Source of the DNA: an archaeon
Lineage (GTDB): Archaea; EX4484-52; WAPT01
DNA length: 64,000 nucleotides
Direction of reading: 5' to 3'
NCBI GenBank assembly: GCA_029258795.1
Contig: JAPDKB010000002.1
Location: forward strand, 1 to 64,000
Position 1 is the stretch's first letter, and every line of letters starts with the position of its first letter. The position numbers were made by a program, and so were the translations under genes. This document shows, one piece after another, positions 46,756 to 63,773 of this stretch. Under the pieces are notes generated by a model, which was not told the origin of the DNA, made no database searches, and saw only the letters and a program-made list of their open reading frames with translations.

Positions 46756-46833
46756 AGCGGGGTAGAGCAGCCTGGAGTGCTCGCCGGGCTCATAACCCGG
46801 AGGTCGCAGGTTCAAATCCTGCCCCCGCTACCA
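46756..46833 (+). tRNA. Initiator tRNA-Met (CAT), no intron
   Basis: Acceptor AGCGGGG pairs with CCCCGCT; CCA is encoded at 46831-46833. The anticodon arm CCGGG-CTCATAA-CCCGG has the three consecutive G:C pairs of initiator tRNAs, and the acceptor starts with A as in archaeal initiators. The T-loop (TTCAAAT) is uninterrupted, unlike the other tRNAs of the window. Confidence 0.95.
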
Positions 46834-46900
46834 GTTCTTAAATTTTTCTATATCACAAAATCGAAAAGCTTATATATACCTTTATACCACAATCGCCGAT

Positions 46901-47563
46901 ATGCTTAAGGATGTGATAATGCTCGGTTCTGTAGCTTTGCTCCTCTACATGGGGTGGCAGGTTGAAAAGAGAAAGCGGGCAACACACAAATCCATACTCA
47001 CGAAGCTATCCATGTTCTACTTTGCTCTGGGCATTTCTATTCTAATGTATTACATCAGGGATTTTTATGTTGCCAACGAAGCACTAGATCTCTTATTTTA
47101 CCGCATAGGGGCTATGTTTCAAGGATTGTCTTTTCTGCTTATTTTTCTGTTCTCGATCGACATATTTTATTCTGAAAGCAGGTTTAAAATGCCAGCATAC
47201 ATTCTCGCATTTCTAATCTTTGTTATGTTCTCTATTGGTATGTGGACTTTTCATCTGGAGCGTGAGATGCAAGTGTTTTATCTGGATAAAAAGTACGAAG
47301 TCACAAGAGTGTTCTTCCCCATTGAAATCGAAAAAATCATCATAACCTTGATAGGTATTTTTGCATCCACACTCCCGACACTGTCATTCGTTATTTATGG
47401 ATTGCGCGACAAAAATTCGAGGAAGAAAGCATTTCTCTATGCTACAGGTATGGTAGTCATGTTTGCAGGATCGATGCTATGCTATCTTATATCTCCGTTA
47501 CTAGCCAGATCCTTGTATCTGGTTGGCGCGATAATCTGTTATTATGCTTTCAAGATGAGGTGA
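46901..47563 (+). CDS. Six-helix membrane protein paired with a V4R protein
   Basis: 220 residues with about six transmembrane helices (for example LGSVALLLYMGW, MFYFALGISILMYYI, LSFLLIFLFSIDIFY, YILAFLIFVMFSIGMW, LIGIFASTLPTLSFVIYGL, ATGMVVMFAGSMLCYLIS). TATA-like GCTTATATATACC (46868-46880) is about 25 bases before the ATG. The V4R gene starts 8 bases after its stop, so the two are one unit. A frameshifted paralogue with its own V4R partner lies at 53804-54935. No catalytic motif is visible. A membrane sensor or ligand channel that hands a ligand or signal to the soluble V4R protein is my inference. Confidence 0.75.
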   Translation: MLKDVIMLGSVALLLYMGWQVEKRKRATHKSILTKLSMFYFALGISILMYYIRDFYVANEALDLLFYRIGAMFQGLSFLLIFLFSIDIFYSESRFKMPAYILAFLIFVMFSIGMWTFHLEREMQVFYLDKKYEVTRVFFPIEIEKIIITLIGIFASTLPTLSFVIYGLRDKNSRKKAFLYATGMVVMFAGSMLCYLISPLLARSLYLVGAIICYYAFKMR

Positions 47564-47570
47564 GTGGAGG

Positions 47571-48029
47571 ATGCGATTGAAGAAAAATGAAAAATATGTG
47601 GTGTTCGGAGCAGAAGAATGGAGGGTTACTGTGGGTAAGCTTTATGAGGTCGCGGGAAAGGTGTGCGGTAGGGCTCTTTATGATGGAGGGTTGGTTAAAG
47701 GGAGGAAACTCGCGAAAGCCAGTAAGTTGAAGTCGATGGCGGAGATTGAGAGCGTTCTCAAGAATGAGAATCTTGCAGAGCAGGTACAAGTTGAGAGAGA
47801 TATAATTCTTGTTAAGGGCTCTTTCGAAGGAGAAGCCCTAAAACCATCCCTGAAGCCGAGATGCTTCTATCTGGCTGGAGTGCTTGCCGCGCTTTATTCT
47901 GCCTGCAGCGGTAAGGATGTTAAGGTGGAGGAGACGGACTGCATAGCGATGGGTAAAAAGGAGTGCAGGTTTGTGGTGAGGGAGTTGAAATGGTATGAGA
48001 AAATGAAGGAAGTGATGGAAGTGATTTGA
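47571..48029 (+). CDS. V4R-domain protein of the membrane/V4R pair
   Basis: 152 residues, a single V4R domain: LYEVAGKVCGRALYDGG, FEGEALKPSLKPRCFYLAG, VLAALYSACSGKDVKVEETDCIA, GKKECRFVV. ATG 47571 is assumed; the GGAGG touches it, so the TTG at 47577 may be used instead. It is coupled to the six-helix membrane protein. It closely matches the V4R protein at 54462-54935 over its full length. V4R proteins are known as ligand-binding modules in bacteriochlorophyll biosynthesis and bacterial regulators; ligand here unknown. Confidence 0.88.
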   Translation: MRLKKNEKYVVFGAEEWRVTVGKLYEVAGKVCGRALYDGGLVKGRKLAKASKLKSMAEIESVLKNENLAEQVQVERDIILVKGSFEGEALKPSLKPRCFYLAGVLAALYSACSGKDVKVEETDCIAMGKKECRFVVRELKWYEKMKEVMEVI

Positions 48030-48133
48030 GGTGGAAAAGGGTTGAAGAATGTGACGGAAACCTATAAAAAGCTTCTTTTCCAACCAATCATATCTTCATC
48101 TTTTGACCTTCCTTTCTGAGTGGAGGAGATAAC

Positions 48134-50029
48134 ATGACTAAAGATTACGATGCCTCAGCCATCAAGGTTCTGGAGGGGCTTGAGGCGGTGAGAAGAAGGC
48201 CCGCAATGTATATAGGTAGTGTGGGGAAGCGCGGTCTCCACCATCTTGTTAATGAAGTTGTTGACAACAGTGTGGATGAAGCCCTAGCCGGCTACTGTAC
48301 GAGAATAGTGGTAACGCTTCACAAGGATGGATCGGTTAGCGTTGAGGATAATGGACGGGGCATTCCGGTTGACAAGCATCCAAAGTATGGAATTTCTGCG
48401 CTTGAGGTTGTCATGACGAAATTGCACGCAGGAGGTAAGTTCGACAAGAAGGTTTACAAGGTTTCTGGAGGGTTGCACGGAGTTGGAGTTAGTGTGGTGA
48501 ACGCTCTTTCTGAATGGATGGAGGTTCGTGTTAAAAGAGACGGGAAAATCTGGATGCAGAAATACGAGAGAGGTAAGCCAGTAACACAGCTCGAAGTTGC
48601 GGGGGAAACCGATGAAACCGGAACTTATGTCAGGTTTAAGCCCGACCCTGAGATATTCGAGGATACGAGATTTGACCCGTCCATAATAGAGGCGCGCCTC
48701 AAGGAGCTCGCTTATCTCAATCCCGGACTTGAAATAATTTTCAGGGATGAGATTAACGGTAAGGAGAAGCGCTTCTGCTTTGAGAACGGAATAGTTGACC
48801 TTGTGAAAGAGCTTACAAAGGGCAAAAACGCTTTGCACGATGATGTCATCTATCTAAAAGGGGAGGATAATGATGTGATAGTGGAGATTGCGCTGCAATA
48901 TACACAAATGGAAGGTTCAAGCGAGTTCTCGTTTGTCAACAACATCAACACGATTGAAGGCGGCACTCATGTCACAGGATTCAGAATGGCTCTCACAAAA
49001 GCTATTAAGGAAGCTATGGAAAAGCAGGGGCTTTTGAAGGAGAAGGGCGTAAACATCGAGAGTGAGGATATAAGGGATGGGTTAACAGCGGTTATTTCCG
49101 TTAAGGTGCCAAACCCGCAGTTCGAAGGTCAGACGAAAACCAAGCTGGGTAATAGCGAGGTAAGAAACGTAGTTTACAGCATAGTTTACTCCGGGCTCAA
49201 GGATTACTTTGAGAAGCACCCCGAGTTGATAAAGAACATAGGAAACAGGATTATACTTGCTGCAAAAGCCAGAATAGCGGCGAAGAAAGCAAAGGAGCTC
49301 GTGAAAAGAAAGAGCGCGCTTGAAACCACCACGCTTCCAGGCAAGCTTGCTGATTGCATAGAGAGAGATCCTGAAAAATGCGAGCTGTTCATAGTGGAGG
49401 GTGAAAGTGCAGGAGGTAGCGCAAAGCTCGCAAGGACAAGACAGACACAAGCCGTACTTCCGCTGAGGGGTAAGATAATAAATGTGGAAAAAGCTGGACT
49501 GGTCAAGGTGCTGAGAAATGAGGAAATAAAGGCATTGATTTCGGCCATAGGCACTGGCATAGGGGAGGAATTCGACATCAAAAAGCTGAGATACGGAAAG
49601 ATAATAATCATGACGGATGCTGATGTTGATGGAGCTCACATAAGAACACTGCTCCTAACCTTCTTCTACCGCTACATGCCCAAGCTTATAGAGGAGGAGA
49701 AGATATGCATAGCGATGCCACCTCTCTACCGAATCAAGGCGGGGAAGGATATTTATTATGTTTACAGCGAGGAGGAGAAGGAAGAGCTTCTCAAAAAGCT
49801 TGAAGGGAAGAAAGTTGAGGTGCAGCGTTACAAAGGTCTGGGTGAGATGAATCCGGAGCAGCTCTGGGAAACAACCATGAATCCCGAAACTCGAGTCATA
49901 AAAAAAGTGTTCATGGAGGATGCGATAGAGGCCGATAGAATATTCTCGATACTCATGGGTCCCGATACTGAACCCCGAAAGGAGTTCATAATGACTCATG
50001 CAAAGGAAGCTGTGAACATAGATGTTTAA
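48134..50029 (+). CDS. gyrB: DNA gyrase subunit B
   Basis: 631 residues, the short archaeal/bacterial type. The GHKL ATPase has EVVDNSVDEALAG, EDNGRGIPV and KVSGGLHGVGVSVVNAL. The TOPRIM domain has FIVEGESAGGSAK, PLRGKIINVEKA and MTDADVDGAHIRTLLL. GGAGG seven bases before the ATG and TATA-like CCTATAAAAAGC (about 48061-48072) mark its promoter. With GyrA it introduces negative supercoils using ATP. gyrA follows after 21 bases. Confidence 0.97.
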   Translation: MTKDYDASAIKVLEGLEAVRRRPAMYIGSVGKRGLHHLVNEVVDNSVDEALAGYCTRIVVTLHKDGSVSVEDNGRGIPVDKHPKYGISALEVVMTKLHAGGKFDKKVYKVSGGLHGVGVSVVNALSEWMEVRVKRDGKIWMQKYERGKPVTQLEVAGETDETGTYVRFKPDPEIFEDTRFDPSIIEARLKELAYLNPGLEIIFRDEINGKEKRFCFENGIVDLVKELTKGKNALHDDVIYLKGEDNDVIVEIALQYTQMEGSSEFSFVNNINTIEGGTHVTGFRMALTKAIKEAMEKQGLLKEKGVNIESEDIRDGLTAVISVKVPNPQFEGQTKTKLGNSEVRNVVYSIVYSGLKDYFEKHPELIKNIGNRIILAAKARIAAKKAKELVKRKSALETTTLPGKLADCIERDPEKCELFIVEGESAGGSAKLARTRQTQAVLPLRGKIINVEKAGLVKVLRNEEIKALISAIGTGIGEEFDIKKLRYGKIIIMTDADVDGAHIRTLLLTFFYRYMPKLIEEEKICIAMPPLYRIKAGKDIYYVYSEEEKEELLKKLEGKKVEVQRYKGLGEMNPEQLWETTMNPETRVIKKVFMEDAIEADRIFSILMGPDTEPRKEFIMTHAKEAVNIDV

Positions 50030-50050
50030 AGCCAGGAAAGGTGATGATAT

Positions 50051-52477
50051 TTGACACCGCAGAAAGCAAAGCTCATTGAAGCCCCTCTCGAGCAGGAGAT
50101 GAAGCAGGCATATCTGGATTACGCGATGAGCGTTATAGTGGGAAGAGCACTTCCTGATGTGAGGGATGGTTTGAAGCCAGTTCACAGGAGAATACTCTAT
50201 GCCATGTACGAAATGGGGCTTTTCCACAACAAGCCCTACAAGAAGTCAGCCAGAGTGGTTGGAGAAGTGCTCGGTAAGTACCATCCGCATGGTGACGCTT
50301 CCGTTTATGATGCACTCGTCAGAATGGCGCAGGATTTTGTTATGAATTATGTTCTCGTGGATGGCCACGGTAATTTTGGCAGTGTGGATGGCGATCCACC
50401 AGCTGCCATGCGTTACACCGAAGTGAGGCTTTCGAAGATAGCTGAGGAGATGTTGAAGGACATAGACAAGGACACTGTGGATTTCGTGCCCAACTTCGAT
50501 GGCACGCTGAAAGAGCCAGTAGTTTTACCTGCTGCATTTCCCAATCTCCTTGTGAATGGCTCTTCTGGTATAGCTGTAGGAATGGCAACCAACATACTAC
50601 CTCACAATTTGAACGAGGTGGTGGATGCGCTCATCTTCCTTATAGATAACAGGAAACGAGAGGTGAAGGATGAGGAGCTGCTTTCTATAGTTCAGGGACC
50701 TGACTTTCCGACAGGAGGTATAATTCTGGGTAGAGAGGGTATAAGGAGGGGTTATCTTACAGGTAGAGGAAGGGTGATTGTTAGAGGGAAAGCGGAGATT
50801 GAAGAGGGCAAGGGGAAAAGCAGAATAGTTATAACTGAAATTCCATATCAGGTCAACAAAGCGAGAATGATAGAGCACATAGCAGAGCTTGTGAAGGATG
50901 GAGTTATAAGCGGTATAAGAGACATAAGGGATGAATCGGATAGAGAGGGATTGCGCGTCGTTATAGAGCTGAGAAAGGATGCAGACCCCAACATAGTTCT
51001 CAATCAGCTCTACAAGCACACTCAACTTGAAACCAGCTATTCCATGCTGAATCTGGCTCTGGTTGACAACCAGCCGAAAATCCTCACACTCCGCCAGATG
51101 CTGGATGAGTTCATAAAGCACCGCTTCACCGTCATCAGGAGGAAAGCTTCTTACGAGCTGAAGCTTGCCAGAGACAGGGAGCACATAGTGGAGGGCTTGC
51201 TCATAGCTCTGGCCAACATAGATGAGGTTATAGACCTCATCAAGAAATCAAAGGACAGGAAGGAAGCCATGAGCTCACTCATCTCAAGATTCCAGCTGAG
51301 CGAGAAGCAGGCAGATGCCATCCTAACCATGCAGCTGCAGAAGCTGACCTCCATGGAAGTGGAGAAGCTGAAGGAAGAAAAGAAGGAGCTGGAGGAGAGA
51401 ATAAAGAAGCTGCAGAAGATTGTGAATGAAGATGATGAAGTTTACAGGATAATGAGAGAGGAGTTTGAGGAGATAAAGAAGAAGTATGGAAGGGAGAGGA
51501 GAACGAGAATAGAGGAAAGGTATGAAAGCATCGATATTGAGGACCTCGTGCAGGAGGAGGAGGTCATAGTTCTCTGCACAAAGGAAGGTTTCATAAAAAG
51601 GATGCCCGCAAAGCTTTACAGAACGCAGAGGAGGGGTGGCGCTGGCATAATAGGATTGCGTGCTGGCGATCACGATTACACAAAACATCTGATAGCTTGT
51701 TCAACCCACGATATTCTGCTCATCTTTTCAAACAAAGGTGTGCTCCGCACAATCAAAGCTTACGAGATTCCGGAGGCGAGCAGATACAGCAAGGGAAGGC
51801 ACATCTCACAGCTTTTGAAAATGGGTGAGGATGAGAAGGCGGCTGCAATCATTCCTTACAGAAAATCAAACAATTACAAGTACCTCTTCATGTACACCAA
51901 AATGGGCATCGTTAAAAAATGCGAGCTTGAGCTTTTTGCCAACGCAAAGAGGAGCGGAGTTATAGCAATAAAGCTGAAAGAGGGAGATAAGTTGATGGGT
52001 GCAATGCTCACTACAGGAAACAATACGATAATGCTCGCAACAAGGAAGGGCATGGCAATACTTTTCAATGAGCAGGACGTCAGACCCATGGGAAGGAGCG
52101 CGGTCGGAGTGGTTGGAGTCCGGCTTGGCAAGGGTGATGAGGTCGTTGCAGGAGCTGTGGTTGATGACGCGGATTACATCCTCACGGTTACATCGAAGGG
52201 TTATGTGAAGAAGAGCAGGAAGGAAGAGTACAGGGTGATCAAGCGCGGTGGAAAGGGTGTGACTAACATAAAGCTGAGCGAGAAGAATGGTGAGGTGGTG
52301 ACGGCTTTTGGAGTTAGAGATGAGGACGAGATTGTTGCGATAACCAAGAGCGGCATGACCATAAAGGTGAGTGTGAAGCAAATTCCATGTCACGGAAGAG
52401 CAACCATGGGTGTCAGGTTGATCAAACTTAAAGATGGGGATGTCGTGGCGGACGCTGCAAAAATAATTAATATTTAG
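50051..52477 (+). CDS. gyrA: DNA gyrase subunit A
   Basis: 808 residues from TTG 50051, which has AGGTGAT five bases upstream; a nearby GTG/ATG is in another frame. The catalytic tyrosine is Y122 in AAMRYTEVR, at the same number as in E. coli. The long coiled-coil region ends in a C-terminal beta-pinwheel. The GyrA box QRRGGAG (near residue 527) is present, which marks true gyrase rather than topoisomerase IV. The GyrB-GyrA operon is of bacterial type in an archaeal genome, known in several euryarchaeal groups. Confidence 0.97.
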
Positions 52478-52502
52478 CGCCATAATACTTTCCCTGTTGC
52501 AA

Positions 52503-52624
52503 GGGCCGGTGGTCTAGCGGCTATCTGCGAAAACCGGAGGGCTCAGCTCTCTCCGGTCTTCCAGACCGAAGATGACGTCGCCCTCACGCGGCGAAGGTCG
52601 GCGGTTCGAATCCGCCCCGGCCCA
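52503..52624 (+). tRNA. tRNA-Val (CAC) with a D-loop intron
   Basis: Acceptor GGGCCGG pairs with CCGGCCC and the discriminator A is at 52624; CCA is not encoded. The anticodon arm is TCGCC-CTCACGC-GGCGA (anticodon CAC) with no intron there. The D-arm needs GTC (52512-52514) to pair with GAC (52574-52576), but about 49 bases (about 52525-52573) interrupt the D-loop after GCGGCTAT. Removing them gives a standard 73-base tRNA. The insert contains two helices (ACCGGAG/CTCCGGT and CGGTC/GACCG) as a bulge-helix-bulge needs. Confidence 0.92.
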
Positions 52625-53028
52625 TAGAAATTATCCGAATCGCATGTTTACCTAATCGCCAACATAATGCGTTACGAATATCACAAGGAGTGCTATCATC
52701 ACGTGTTCTGCTATCATGTTGACCGGGGTTCATTTTTCATTCTGGCCATTCTGTAACTCAGAAATGAAAGGAGAGACAACTCCCAGAAAACGCTGACCAA
52801 AACAGCCTTCTCCAATTCCAGAAGCAACATGGGCACCAGAAAGCTGAGAGCGAAGATGCTTATTAGGGAGAAGGCTTGCTCTACCGTGGTTCATCACTCC
52901 ATTAGCTTGTTTGATGAACAGGTGGAACAAGCCTCCCTATAAATGTTTTGTTATCGGGACAGTATCAAAATTCCGGACATGTCAACTTAAGAACCAATTT
53001 CTCCACTCTGGCATAAAAATCAAAATAA
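52625..53028. other. Gap without an intact gene; possible membrane-gene remnant
   Basis: On the minus strand the frame 52887-52714 has no start codon and reads EQAFSLISIFALSFLVPMLL and further hydrophobic residues, then stops. A 21-residue hydrophobic stretch (IAEHVMIALLVIFVTHYVGD) begins at 52717, overlapping that stop as ATGA. This looks like a decayed piece of a membrane transporter gene, but I cannot name it. Nothing else seen. Confidence 0.25.
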
Positions 53029-53096
53029 GGGGGCTCAGCATATCTTGATTTTGCAAAACACACCTTAAAGGAGGTGATATACCATGCTGAGCCCCC
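53029..53096 (+). repeat. Long inverted repeat over the transposase start
   Basis: GGGGGCTCAGCAT (53029-53041) and its exact complement ATGCTGAGCCCCC (53084-53096) flank 42 bases. The second arm contains the ATG (53084) of the decayed transposase, and the loop contains its AAAGGAGGTG ribosome-binding site (53067-53076). In read-through RNA the hairpin would hide the start codon. Confidence 0.8.
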
Positions 53097-53714
53097 ATAT
53101 AGATGAAATGTTCTCAAGGATATTTAAAAGAAACAAAAAGCTGAAAGAAAAACAAGATAAAGCCAGTATTGCTTTATTTCTCGGGATTATCATACAGAAA
53201 AGCAGGAGATGAAACAGATATGAGCCATGAGAACGTGAGAAAGTTATTCAGAAAAACGAAAGAATTTCTCAGGGAAATAAAGCCAGTAAAAAGAAAAACG
53301 ATAGCAATGGATGAGACGGTGATAAAAACAAACGGGAGGAGATGTTACATTTACGCAGCTTACGCATGAGGGCTTATGCAGCAAGAAGTTATTTGGCAGC
53401 TCTGGATTTTGTAAAACGGGTTTTTGGAGTTGGGTAAGAAAATAATCTCCTGTTTGCTGTTGATAAGGCTCCGCGGCATTAGACGGGTTTTTGAAAGACC
53501 CGGGTTGAGATATGTGCATGAGACTTCTGGAATGAGGAATAAAGTGTGGAGGGGGATCTTTTGGTTATTTGAAGCAGGGAAGTGTTTTGTTTTATTCACG
53601 ACAATTAATGTGAATTTGGGGTCTGTGTTTGGAAGAATGGATAAAAGGGTTGAGGGATGGAGAAGCTTTGAGGCATCTGAATTTGTTTTTGAAGTTGTTT
53701 ATGGTTTATTATGA
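53084..53714 (+). pseudogene. Frameshifted DDE transposase, IS6/IS240-like
   Basis: An IS transposase broken into at least three frames. The first (53084) gives LSPHIDEMFSRIFKRN and ends at an early stop near 53210. The second (to 53369) gives LSYRKAGDETDMSHENVRKL and the first catalytic Asp in AMDETVIKTNGRRCYIY. The third (to 53714) gives LRYVHETSGMRNKV and the C-terminal tail. The order is that of IS6-type transposases. It is not functional. Confidence 0.75.
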
Positions 53715-53803
53715 TTGGTTTGTCAGGAGGTGAGGCTTATCCGGATGCACTCCTTGCACATACCACAAACATTTATATATAACTTTTGCCAAAATATAAA
53801 GCC

Positions 53804-54457
53804 ATGATTAAAGATGCAATAATGTTGGTTTCTATAATGTGGGGTGGAAGGTCGAAACAATAAGAAAAGAAAGTGGAAAGAATCTTCTTTTGAAATTGAC
53901 TTTATTTTATGTTGCGCTGGGTATTGCTATATTTTTTTACTATGTTCGGGACTTTTATGTATATAATCAGGCATTGGATTTTTTGTTCGGTAAAATAGGT
54001 GGAACATTCCATACAATTTCATTCCTTTCCATTTTCCTCTTCTCCGTAGATATATTTTATTCAGAGAAGTGGAAGAGATAGATATGCTTACTTTCTGGGA
54101 ATTTTGCTGATGACTGTTTTCGTGATTTTCCTGTGGAACGTAACGTTTGCCAGTGAAATTCAGGTGGTTAAGCTTGATAAGGAGTACGTCGTAACTCACG
54201 TTTATTTTCCAGATAAATCCGAAATGATGCTTTACGTTGTTTTAGTGAGTGTAATATCATTTTTACCTATTCTCTCATTTTTAGCTTACGGAATAAAGGT
54301 TCCGGCGAAAAGAAGAAAGGCTCTAACCTATTGTTTGGGAATAGCCGTTACCGCCTCAGGAACCATGCTTTGCCTCCTTATATCCCCAATACTTGCACGA
54401 GTTATGTATCTGCTGGGTGCAGTCATCTGCTATTATGCTTTCAAAATGAAGAGTTGA
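53804..54457 (+). pseudogene. Frameshifted second copy of the six-helix membrane protein
   Basis: The DNA aligns with 46901-47563 from start to end: IKDAIMLVS against LKDVIMLGS, FYVALGIAIFFYYVRDFYV against FYFALGISILMYYIRDFYV, and RVMYLLGAVICYYAFKM against RSLYLVGAIICYYAFKM. A small deletion with a frame change near 53835 and a one-base shift near 54078 break it. The TATA-like ATTTATATATAAC (about 53771-53783) is at the same place as in the intact copy. Its V4R partner downstream is intact. Confidence 0.85.
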
Positions 54458-54461
54458 GGTA

Positions 54462-54935
54462 ATGAACATGACTGTGCTGCGAAAAAAAGAAAGAAGCATA
54501 TGTATATCCCAGAGAGAATGGGCGGTGATGACTAAAAGGTTGTATGAAGTTGCAGGAAAGGTTTTTGGTAGAGCGCTCTATGAAGGTGGACAGGTAAAAG
54601 GAAAGGAATTGGTAAAAAAATATGGCGTAAAGAAAGACGATTTGAAACAATTGCAAGAAGTAATAAAAAAAGAGGGCCTTGCAAGAAATGTGGAGATACA
54701 TGATAGAGAAATATTGGTTGAAGGTTCTTTTGAAGGAGAAGCTCTAAAACCATACACAAGGCCTGTGTGTTTTTATCTCGCAGGGATCATTGCAACCATT
54801 TATTCAAAGATAGAAAAGGAAGATGTAAAAGTTGAAGAAACGGACTGCATCTCCACAGGTAAAAAAGTGTGCAGGTTTGTCGTCAGGCCGCTTGAGTGGT
54901 ATGAAAAGATGAATGAAGTTATGGAAATAATTTGA
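54462..54935 (+). CDS. V4R-domain protein of the second membrane/V4R pair
   Basis: 157 residues; ATG 54462 or ATG 54468 (better spaced from GAGGT). The V4R domain matches 47571-48029 along its length: LYEVAGKVFGRALYEGG, FEGEALKPYTRPVCFYLAG, KKVCRFVVRPLEWYEKMNEVMEII. The frame is intact although its membrane partner gene is broken, so it may be kept by selection or the partner was lost recently. Confidence 0.85.
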   Translation: MNMTVLRKKERSICISQREWAVMTKRLYEVAGKVFGRALYEGGQVKGKELVKKYGVKKDDLKQLQEVIKKEGLARNVEIHDREILVEGSFEGEALKPYTRPVCFYLAGIIATIYSKIEKEDVKVEETDCISTGKKVCRFVVRPLEWYEKMNEVMEII

Positions 54936-62705: not shown

Positions 62706-62753
62706 ACAAACTTTATATACGACGATCGCAATATTTCTATCTGGGTGATTTGG

Positions 62754-63773
62754 ATGGCGGAGAATTCTCCTAATTACCGATATGATCCTCTCATAGGCGA
62801 GCTTTACTTGAATAAAATCTCGTGTGAGTTAACAACCAGAAAGTTTCACAATGACTTGAGGAGGGAGTTCGAGGCCATTCTGGGCGCGGTAGCTAAATCC
62901 ATGTTCTACACGGTGGGTAAGGTAACGGGCATGATTGTTGCAAAGTACTTTGATGATATTGATGTGCTTTCGTGGATGGGTTGGGGTGTGCCTCTGGTTA
63001 AAAAAGATGGAAGCGTGGAAGTTAAAAATTCTTACATGACCATGTATCGGAGCGAGATAGGCAAGAAGTCATGCGATATCGTTGCAGGATTTCTGGCAGG
63101 GTGGTTCAGTAGGAAGGAAAAGGATAATGTCGATTTTATAGAATCGAGGTGCGCCTCAACCACTAAGTTCAAGACCTGCAGGTTTGAAAGGGTTGAAAAG
63201 AATGTGGCTGTCGAAGTACCTAAAATCAGGATGAAGAAGCCCAGAGAACACCTGAAAAATGTGAATATAAACCTGAAACCATCCAGTGGTGAGATAATTT
63301 ATAGGGGAGATTCGTCTCTCATCATTCCACGTGGCTTTACCGCGATCTTTCAGAGGGAATTTGAAAGGGTGATCGGGGCTGTTGCTTCCAGAAAAATGTA
63401 CGAAGTTGTGAAGAAAATAAGTTATGAGGCAGTTGTGAAGGAGCAGGGGTTCAGGTTTATTGGACTTGCTATTCTTCCCAAATTCATCCGTGCAAAGCTG
63501 CTTCTTCATGAAGAGCTTGTGCAGCTACCCGAAAGAGGTTTTGGGAATGTCAGGGTTTTAAGACTGGATTTGAAGGAAGGGATTCTGCTGGAAATTGATA
63601 ATTCTTACAACGCATTCACCTACGGTAAGGTTGGCAAGCCCGTGTGTCACACGCTTGCAGGAGTTCTTGCGGGAGGTGCCAAGGCGGTGATTGGCGGAGA
63701 TTGGGAATGCGTGGAGAATAAATGCGTTGCTGCAGGAGATGGTGTCTGCGAGTTCGAGTTGAAGCCGGCGTGA
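62754..63773 (+). CDS. Protein with two V4R-like domains
   Basis: About 339 residues from ATG 62754 (GGTGA five bases upstream); a GTG at 62745 is the alternative. The two halves are related: REFEAILGAVAKSMFYTVGK and REFERVIGAVASRKMYEVVKK open each, and each ends in a cysteine-bearing V4R tail (CDIVAGFLAGWF...CRFER and CHTLAGVLAGGA...CEFEL). The first half has lost some glycine spacing. TATA-like CTTTATATACG (about 62710-62720) is upstream. V4R modules bind ligands; the tandem may form an intramolecular dimer. Confidence 0.85.
   Translation: MAENSPNYRYDPLIGELYLNKISCELTTRKFHNDLRREFEAILGAVAKSMFYTVGKVTGMIVAKYFDDIDVLSWMGWGVPLVKKDGSVEVKNSYMTMYRSEIGKKSCDIVAGFLAGWFSRKEKDNVDFIESRCASTTKFKTCRFERVEKNVAVEVPKIRMKKPREHLKNVNINLKPSSGEIIYRGDSSLIIPRGFTAIFQREFERVIGAVASRKMYEVVKKISYEAVVKEQGFRFIGLAILPKFIRAKLLLHEELVQLPERGFGNVRVLRLDLKEGILLEIDNSYNAFTYGKVGKPVCHTLAGVLAGGAKAVIGGDWECVENKCVAAGDGVCEFELKPA

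Follow-up and report, generated by a model that had tools for sequence, protein, structure and literature searches.

A gene for a membrane protein followed by a gene for a V4R protein occurs twice in the genome of an uncultured archaeon; the two pairs flank the DNA gyrase genes and have diverged from each other. Does such a pair form a functional unit, and what could this unit do? We analysed both copies in the window, i.e. the whole stretch of 64,000 nucleotides which carries them.

Layout and history of the two copies

The first-pass annotation described a two-gene cassette present twice, with a common order and TATA position. Both statements hold: the open reading frames lie where it placed them (Table 1), Pfam confirms the V4R domain, and the copies match each other with E 2e-29 for the membrane proteins (50% protein identity, the pieces of copy 2 being joined with X) and E 1e-51 for the V4R proteins (57% identity), a similarity which, judged on the alignments, is far beyond chance. 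The same TATA-box-like element precedes the ATG at the same distance in both cassettes, and the gap between the membrane gene and the V4R gene is 7 nt in cassette 1 and 4 nt in cassette 2. The duplication took both genes at once, and their divergence since then is similar. A third copy of the membrane gene was not found in this genome, even at E 10.

Table 1. Features of the two cassettes and of their immediate surroundings in the window
Feature	Position	Strand	Remarks
tRNA-Met, 5' of cassette 1	46756..46833	+	
TATA-box-like element of cassette 1, TTATATATA	46870..46878	+	Read directly; 31 nt 5' of ATG
Membrane protein of cassette 1 (orphan, polytopic, 220 aa)	46901..47563	+	Probably 7 TM; N-out/C-in by charge
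V4R protein of cassette 1 (152 aa)	47571..48029	+	Pfam PF02830 5e-14; MopR alignment; zinc-site residues C98/E121/C124/C132 kept
TATA element of gyrB, AACCTATAAAAAGCTTCTT	48062..48069	+	Identical in both congeners
TATA-box-like element of cassette 2, TTATATATA	53773..53782	+	31 nt 5' of ATG
Membrane gene, copy 2 (broken)	53804..54457	+	Short deletion near 53836, frameshift near 54078
V4R protein of cassette 2 (157 aa, intact)	54462..54935	+	Pfam 3e-16; 57% identical to copy 1; zinc-site residues as copy 1

It was also correctly noticed at the outset that the membrane gene of copy 2 is frameshifted while its V4R reading frame is open; a short deletion, after codon 11, has to be added to the frameshift. 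Two open pieces are left of this gene (53839-54081 and 54104-54457), in two successive frames. The divergence between copies 1 and 2 at codon positions 1/2/3 is 0.33/0.21/0.69 and 0.42/0.30/0.62 for the two pieces, hence biased towards the third position. This means that constraint at the protein level acted on copy 2 during most of its history and, as both pieces display this constraint, that its lesions are either recent or errors. Since an intact V4R gene stands beside a broken membrane gene in copy 2, V4R may function without the membrane protein. Alternatively, copy 2 could be alive in a split form, its pieces being two small membrane subunits which accompany V4R, like the 3TM+3TM+V4R arrangement of relatives described below: both pieces are open, have plausible starts (GTG and TTG) and end just 5' of the intact V4R gene, and split 3TM pairs with V4R are known within the order. 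However, TM1 is gone through the deletion, the starts are weak and without ribosome-site evidence, and a frameshift is the simpler reading, which makes a living split gene highly improbable in our eyes.

In both congeners gyrB directly follows tRNA-Met, the cassette is missing there, and the TATA element of gyrB is identical; hence the units on both sides of cassette 1 are intact. Each of the two congeners has one V4R and neither gene of the pair. As gyrB keeps its own conserved promoter, the cassette is unlikely to be part of a gyr operon. Insertion targeted to the tRNA was rejected as well: cassette 1 follows tRNA-Met, yet a repeat search with a minimum length of 20 detected no direct repeat of the 3' end of the tRNA. 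The neighbours of the cassettes are tRNA-Met, gyrB, an IS fragment and a RimK-like ATP-grasp gene; no KaiC-like ATPase gene is adjacent and no effector gene is fixed beside the pair.

The absence of the pair at the same locus of both congeners would also be compatible with an ORFan cassette that was gained recently and has no settled role in the cell, i.e. mobile or horizontally acquired DNA of which one copy is already decaying. The DNA of cassette 2 is AT-rich (GC 33-39%, versus 47% for gyrBA), adjoins a weak IS240-type DDE transposase fragment and carries the broken membrane gene. Nevertheless, coding constraint is seen over a divergence of about 45% at the protein level, cassette 1 has a host-like GC3 and its own promoter, no integrase was matched, and phage and anti-phage defence genes gave no significant PHROGs or PADLOC match. 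A cassette devoid of a settled role is, with these points on both sides, a rather unlikely explanation.

Elsewhere in the window (52507-52625), a tRNA-Val(CAC) gene missed by ARAGORN has an insertion of about 50 nt in its D-arm when compared to the intact gene of a congener. This insertion is probably a non-canonical tRNA intron.

The two proteins

The membrane protein had been announced as a six-helix protein. Hydropathy indeed gives six segments, but both AlphaFold models, of low confidence (mean pLDDT 65 and 60), have seven helices, so that the protein, going by these models, probably has seven TM segments rather than six; the charges of its loops favour N-out, C-in. It has no match in Pfam, NCBIfam, PHROGs or PADLOC, and the comparison with Pfam, including the 7TM receptor families (7TMR-DISM, HisKA_7TM and others), gave nothing at E up to 1 except HELP at 0.15. 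Fold searches returned only helical-bundle noise, and they are uninformative because the model itself is poor. No homologue was found in 61 archaeal genomes searched by protein and 297 searched by profile (an overlapping set), in two GTDB-wide scans, in viral contigs, in two further archaeal phyla, or in plasmids and phages. Two weak matches of the profile search in the 297 genomes (L046 and L047) fall on a lipoprotein-like ORF, which is unrelated, and on a region of translation-machinery genes. At the search sensitivity used, the membrane protein is an orphan.

V4R proteins are prokaryotic relatives of TRAPP/Bet3, and to our knowledge few partners are known for those of archaea. The two window copies score 52.5 and 59.7 bits against the Pfam model (cut-off 31), and their best solved relatives are MopR, PoxR and MJ1460. 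The four zinc-site residues of copy 1 (Table 1) align to P-A-C-W and ETHC...HC of MopR, and the positions of the ligand cysteines and of the glutamate are aligned in both copies. The cysteine pattern is C-26-C-8-C, with the glutamate of ETxC, a spacing equal to that of C151, C177 and C185, the zinc ligands of DmpR (PMC7264223). On this alignment, both copies keep the zinc-binding residues of MopR/DmpR, three cysteines and a glutamate. The V4R protein of copy 1 has no histidine, and its only two tryptophans (W17 and W141) are outside the equivalent site; it therefore has no DmpR-type phenol pocket. A tree of 104 V4R rows groups the window copies with full support; their common branch is long and has no close sister, and the closest relative of each copy is the other. 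No V4R was found in viral contigs.

V4R is recognised as a domain that binds ligands in signalling (PMC2253512, PMC7264223, PMC3729527). Its homologue Bet3 accommodates a fatty acyl chain, and hydrophobic molecules are the presumed ligands of V4R domains (PMC2253512, PMC10933270). These relationships speak for another reading, where the membrane protein would be a transporter, a flippase or a lipid-modifying protein with a hydrophobic product, and V4R a soluble protein that carries or regulates this product, acyl-binding in the manner of TRAPP/Bet3 rather than relaying a signal. One sampled V4R gene (L157) follows a gene for what we take to be an ICMT-like methyltransferase, which would fit. 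However, the membrane protein has only 220 aa and short loops, no conserved catalytic motif is visible across its two copies, and it matches no transporter family; a role in transport or lipid modification thus looks unlikely.

V4R genes and their neighbours in other archaea

The source genome (1.17 Mb), archaeal by its ribosomal and aIF6 genes, holds 15-16 V4R domains, the most among the 394 archaeal genomes searched, the next one having 10. A 342-aa protein with two V4R domains is encoded in the window (62745-63773), 3' of a 334-aa transposase-like ORF without Pfam match. At another locus (L012:3077-4916) TusA and two genes for sulphur transport (YeeE/YedE-like) come after a V4R gene, and at a third (L015:1-1603) a V4R gene is followed by a KaiC-Ras/Arf-like GTPase fusion; the V4R of L015 has a nearly identical counterpart on contig C1 (L013). 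In the congeners, the only V4R precedes the gene of a FIST-domain sensor (L083:2922-4961).

We surveyed the neighbourhoods of 98 V4R ORFs. Outside the source order, nearly all of them are without a membrane gene directly upstream, and the two exceptions (L153 and L157) have unrelated neighbours. Within the order, a different module is conserved at eight loci (L071-L077, L079) from three families: two overlapping 3-TM genes, then V4R and usually a KaiC-like ATPase. It adjoins type IV pilus genes, with T2SSF and what is presumably a pilus-type ATPase, and a second KaiC. The 3TM proteins of this module are homologous to each other and have no Pfam match over threshold. The profile of the second 3TM protein found the same set in G209, outside the order (L173: 4TM+2TM by hydropathy, V4R, KaiC, double V4R, pilus ATPase). 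It also led to a 232-aa polytopic protein of G145, encoded between KaiC-like genes (L172:2028-2726); the last three helices of this protein match the 3TM family, which thus exists fused as well as split. The window membrane protein ranks 119 of 136 against the profile of the 3TM superfamily, with an hhalign probability below 1%, and to regard it as a fusion of 3TM-A and 3TM-B is therefore unsupported. In the tree, the V4R of the order's 3TM module is not sister to the window V4R.

The view that the fixed pairing reflects a functional unit keeps part of its force: the operon is tight and was duplicated as a unit, but the pairing is known from a single genome, where the two copies are paralogous. 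The membrane family was absent from all other genomes, viruses and plasmids searched, and V4R in general is mostly apart from membrane neighbours. With a membrane protein found only in the source genome and congeners without the cassette, the pairing can be judged only by its duplication as a unit.

A candidate membrane sensor and its known counterparts

The reading proposed in the first-pass annotation, a sensor in the membrane with V4R as its soluble partner, is still the best one, with the reservation that the pairing comes from one genome. We tentatively propose that the pair is a lineage-specific, two-component membrane signalling pair, made of a membrane sensor and a cytoplasmic V4R relay. 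The mechanism that we infer comprises sensing, docking, relay and output: the orphan 7-TM protein would sense a signal within the membrane or across it, the dimeric, zinc-stabilised V4R made from the same transcript would dock to the C-terminus and cytoplasmic loops of this protein, and V4R would pass its state to partners downstream in the archaeal V4R/KaiC signalling network, which would be the output. V4R may instead bind a hydrophobic ligand handed over by the 7-TM protein.

This sensor and relay are proposed on the basis of the gene structure (a tight operon, with a promoter at matching positions in both copies), the joint duplication with similar divergence and coding constraint in copy 2 until its lesions, and the zinc-site residues at MopR spacing in a recognised ligand-binding signalling domain. 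Gene structure, joint duplication and zinc-site residues are observed features of the pair, as are its absence from the congeners and the separate promoter of gyrB. The highest V4R count among the 394 archaeal genomes and the 3TM+3TM+V4R(+KaiC) module next to genes of type IV pili, seen in the order and in one outside genome, point the same way. Against it stand a membrane protein without detectable homologue elsewhere or significant similarity to the 3TM family, the poor monomer models, the intact V4R beside a broken membrane gene in copy 2, and the lack of a fixed effector gene. A broader idea, possible but doubtful, is that V4R is a general cytoplasmic adaptor whose coupling to small polytopic membrane sensors arose in archaea several times independently (7TM+V4R; 3TM+3TM+V4R+KaiC). 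If true, this membrane-to-cytoplasm signalling architecture is undescribed in the literature searched. The pair and the module give concrete, testable partners for archaeal V4R, and they suggest how membrane signals reach archaeal KaiC/V4R networks.

Several known systems can be compared with the pair. With the stand-alone archaeal V4R (MJ1460, PDB 2osd/2oso) and the sensory domains of MopR, PoxR and DmpR, the window V4R shares the domain match, the fold family, C-26-C-8-C and the glutamate before the second cysteine; it differs from all of them in that its gene adjoins that of a polytopic membrane protein and, unlike MopR, PoxR and DmpR, it is unfused to AAA+ or HTH. MsvR is a redox-sensing V4R regulator of methanogens. 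It is the best NCBIfam match of the window V4R (1e-11), with the three V4R cysteines in common, but the match reaches about 45 bits versus an equivalog cut-off of 220 bits, and the window V4R is without an N-terminal HTH or any other DNA-binding domain. In KaiC-centred archaeal signalling (Makarova, Galperin and Koonin 2017, as cited in PMC5847659), the likeness is that V4R genes stand beside KaiC-like ATPases at several loci, including L015 of the source genome, whereas the window pair has no adjacent KaiC. Finally, the 3TM+3TM+V4R+KaiC module has in common with the pair one or more small membrane proteins followed at once by V4R; the membrane parts are without sequence similarity, V4R belongs to another clade and KaiC is present. 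The likeness is one of design rather than of demonstrated descent. As the module is found in three families and in one genome outside the order, V4R beside small membrane proteins is a design that recurs.
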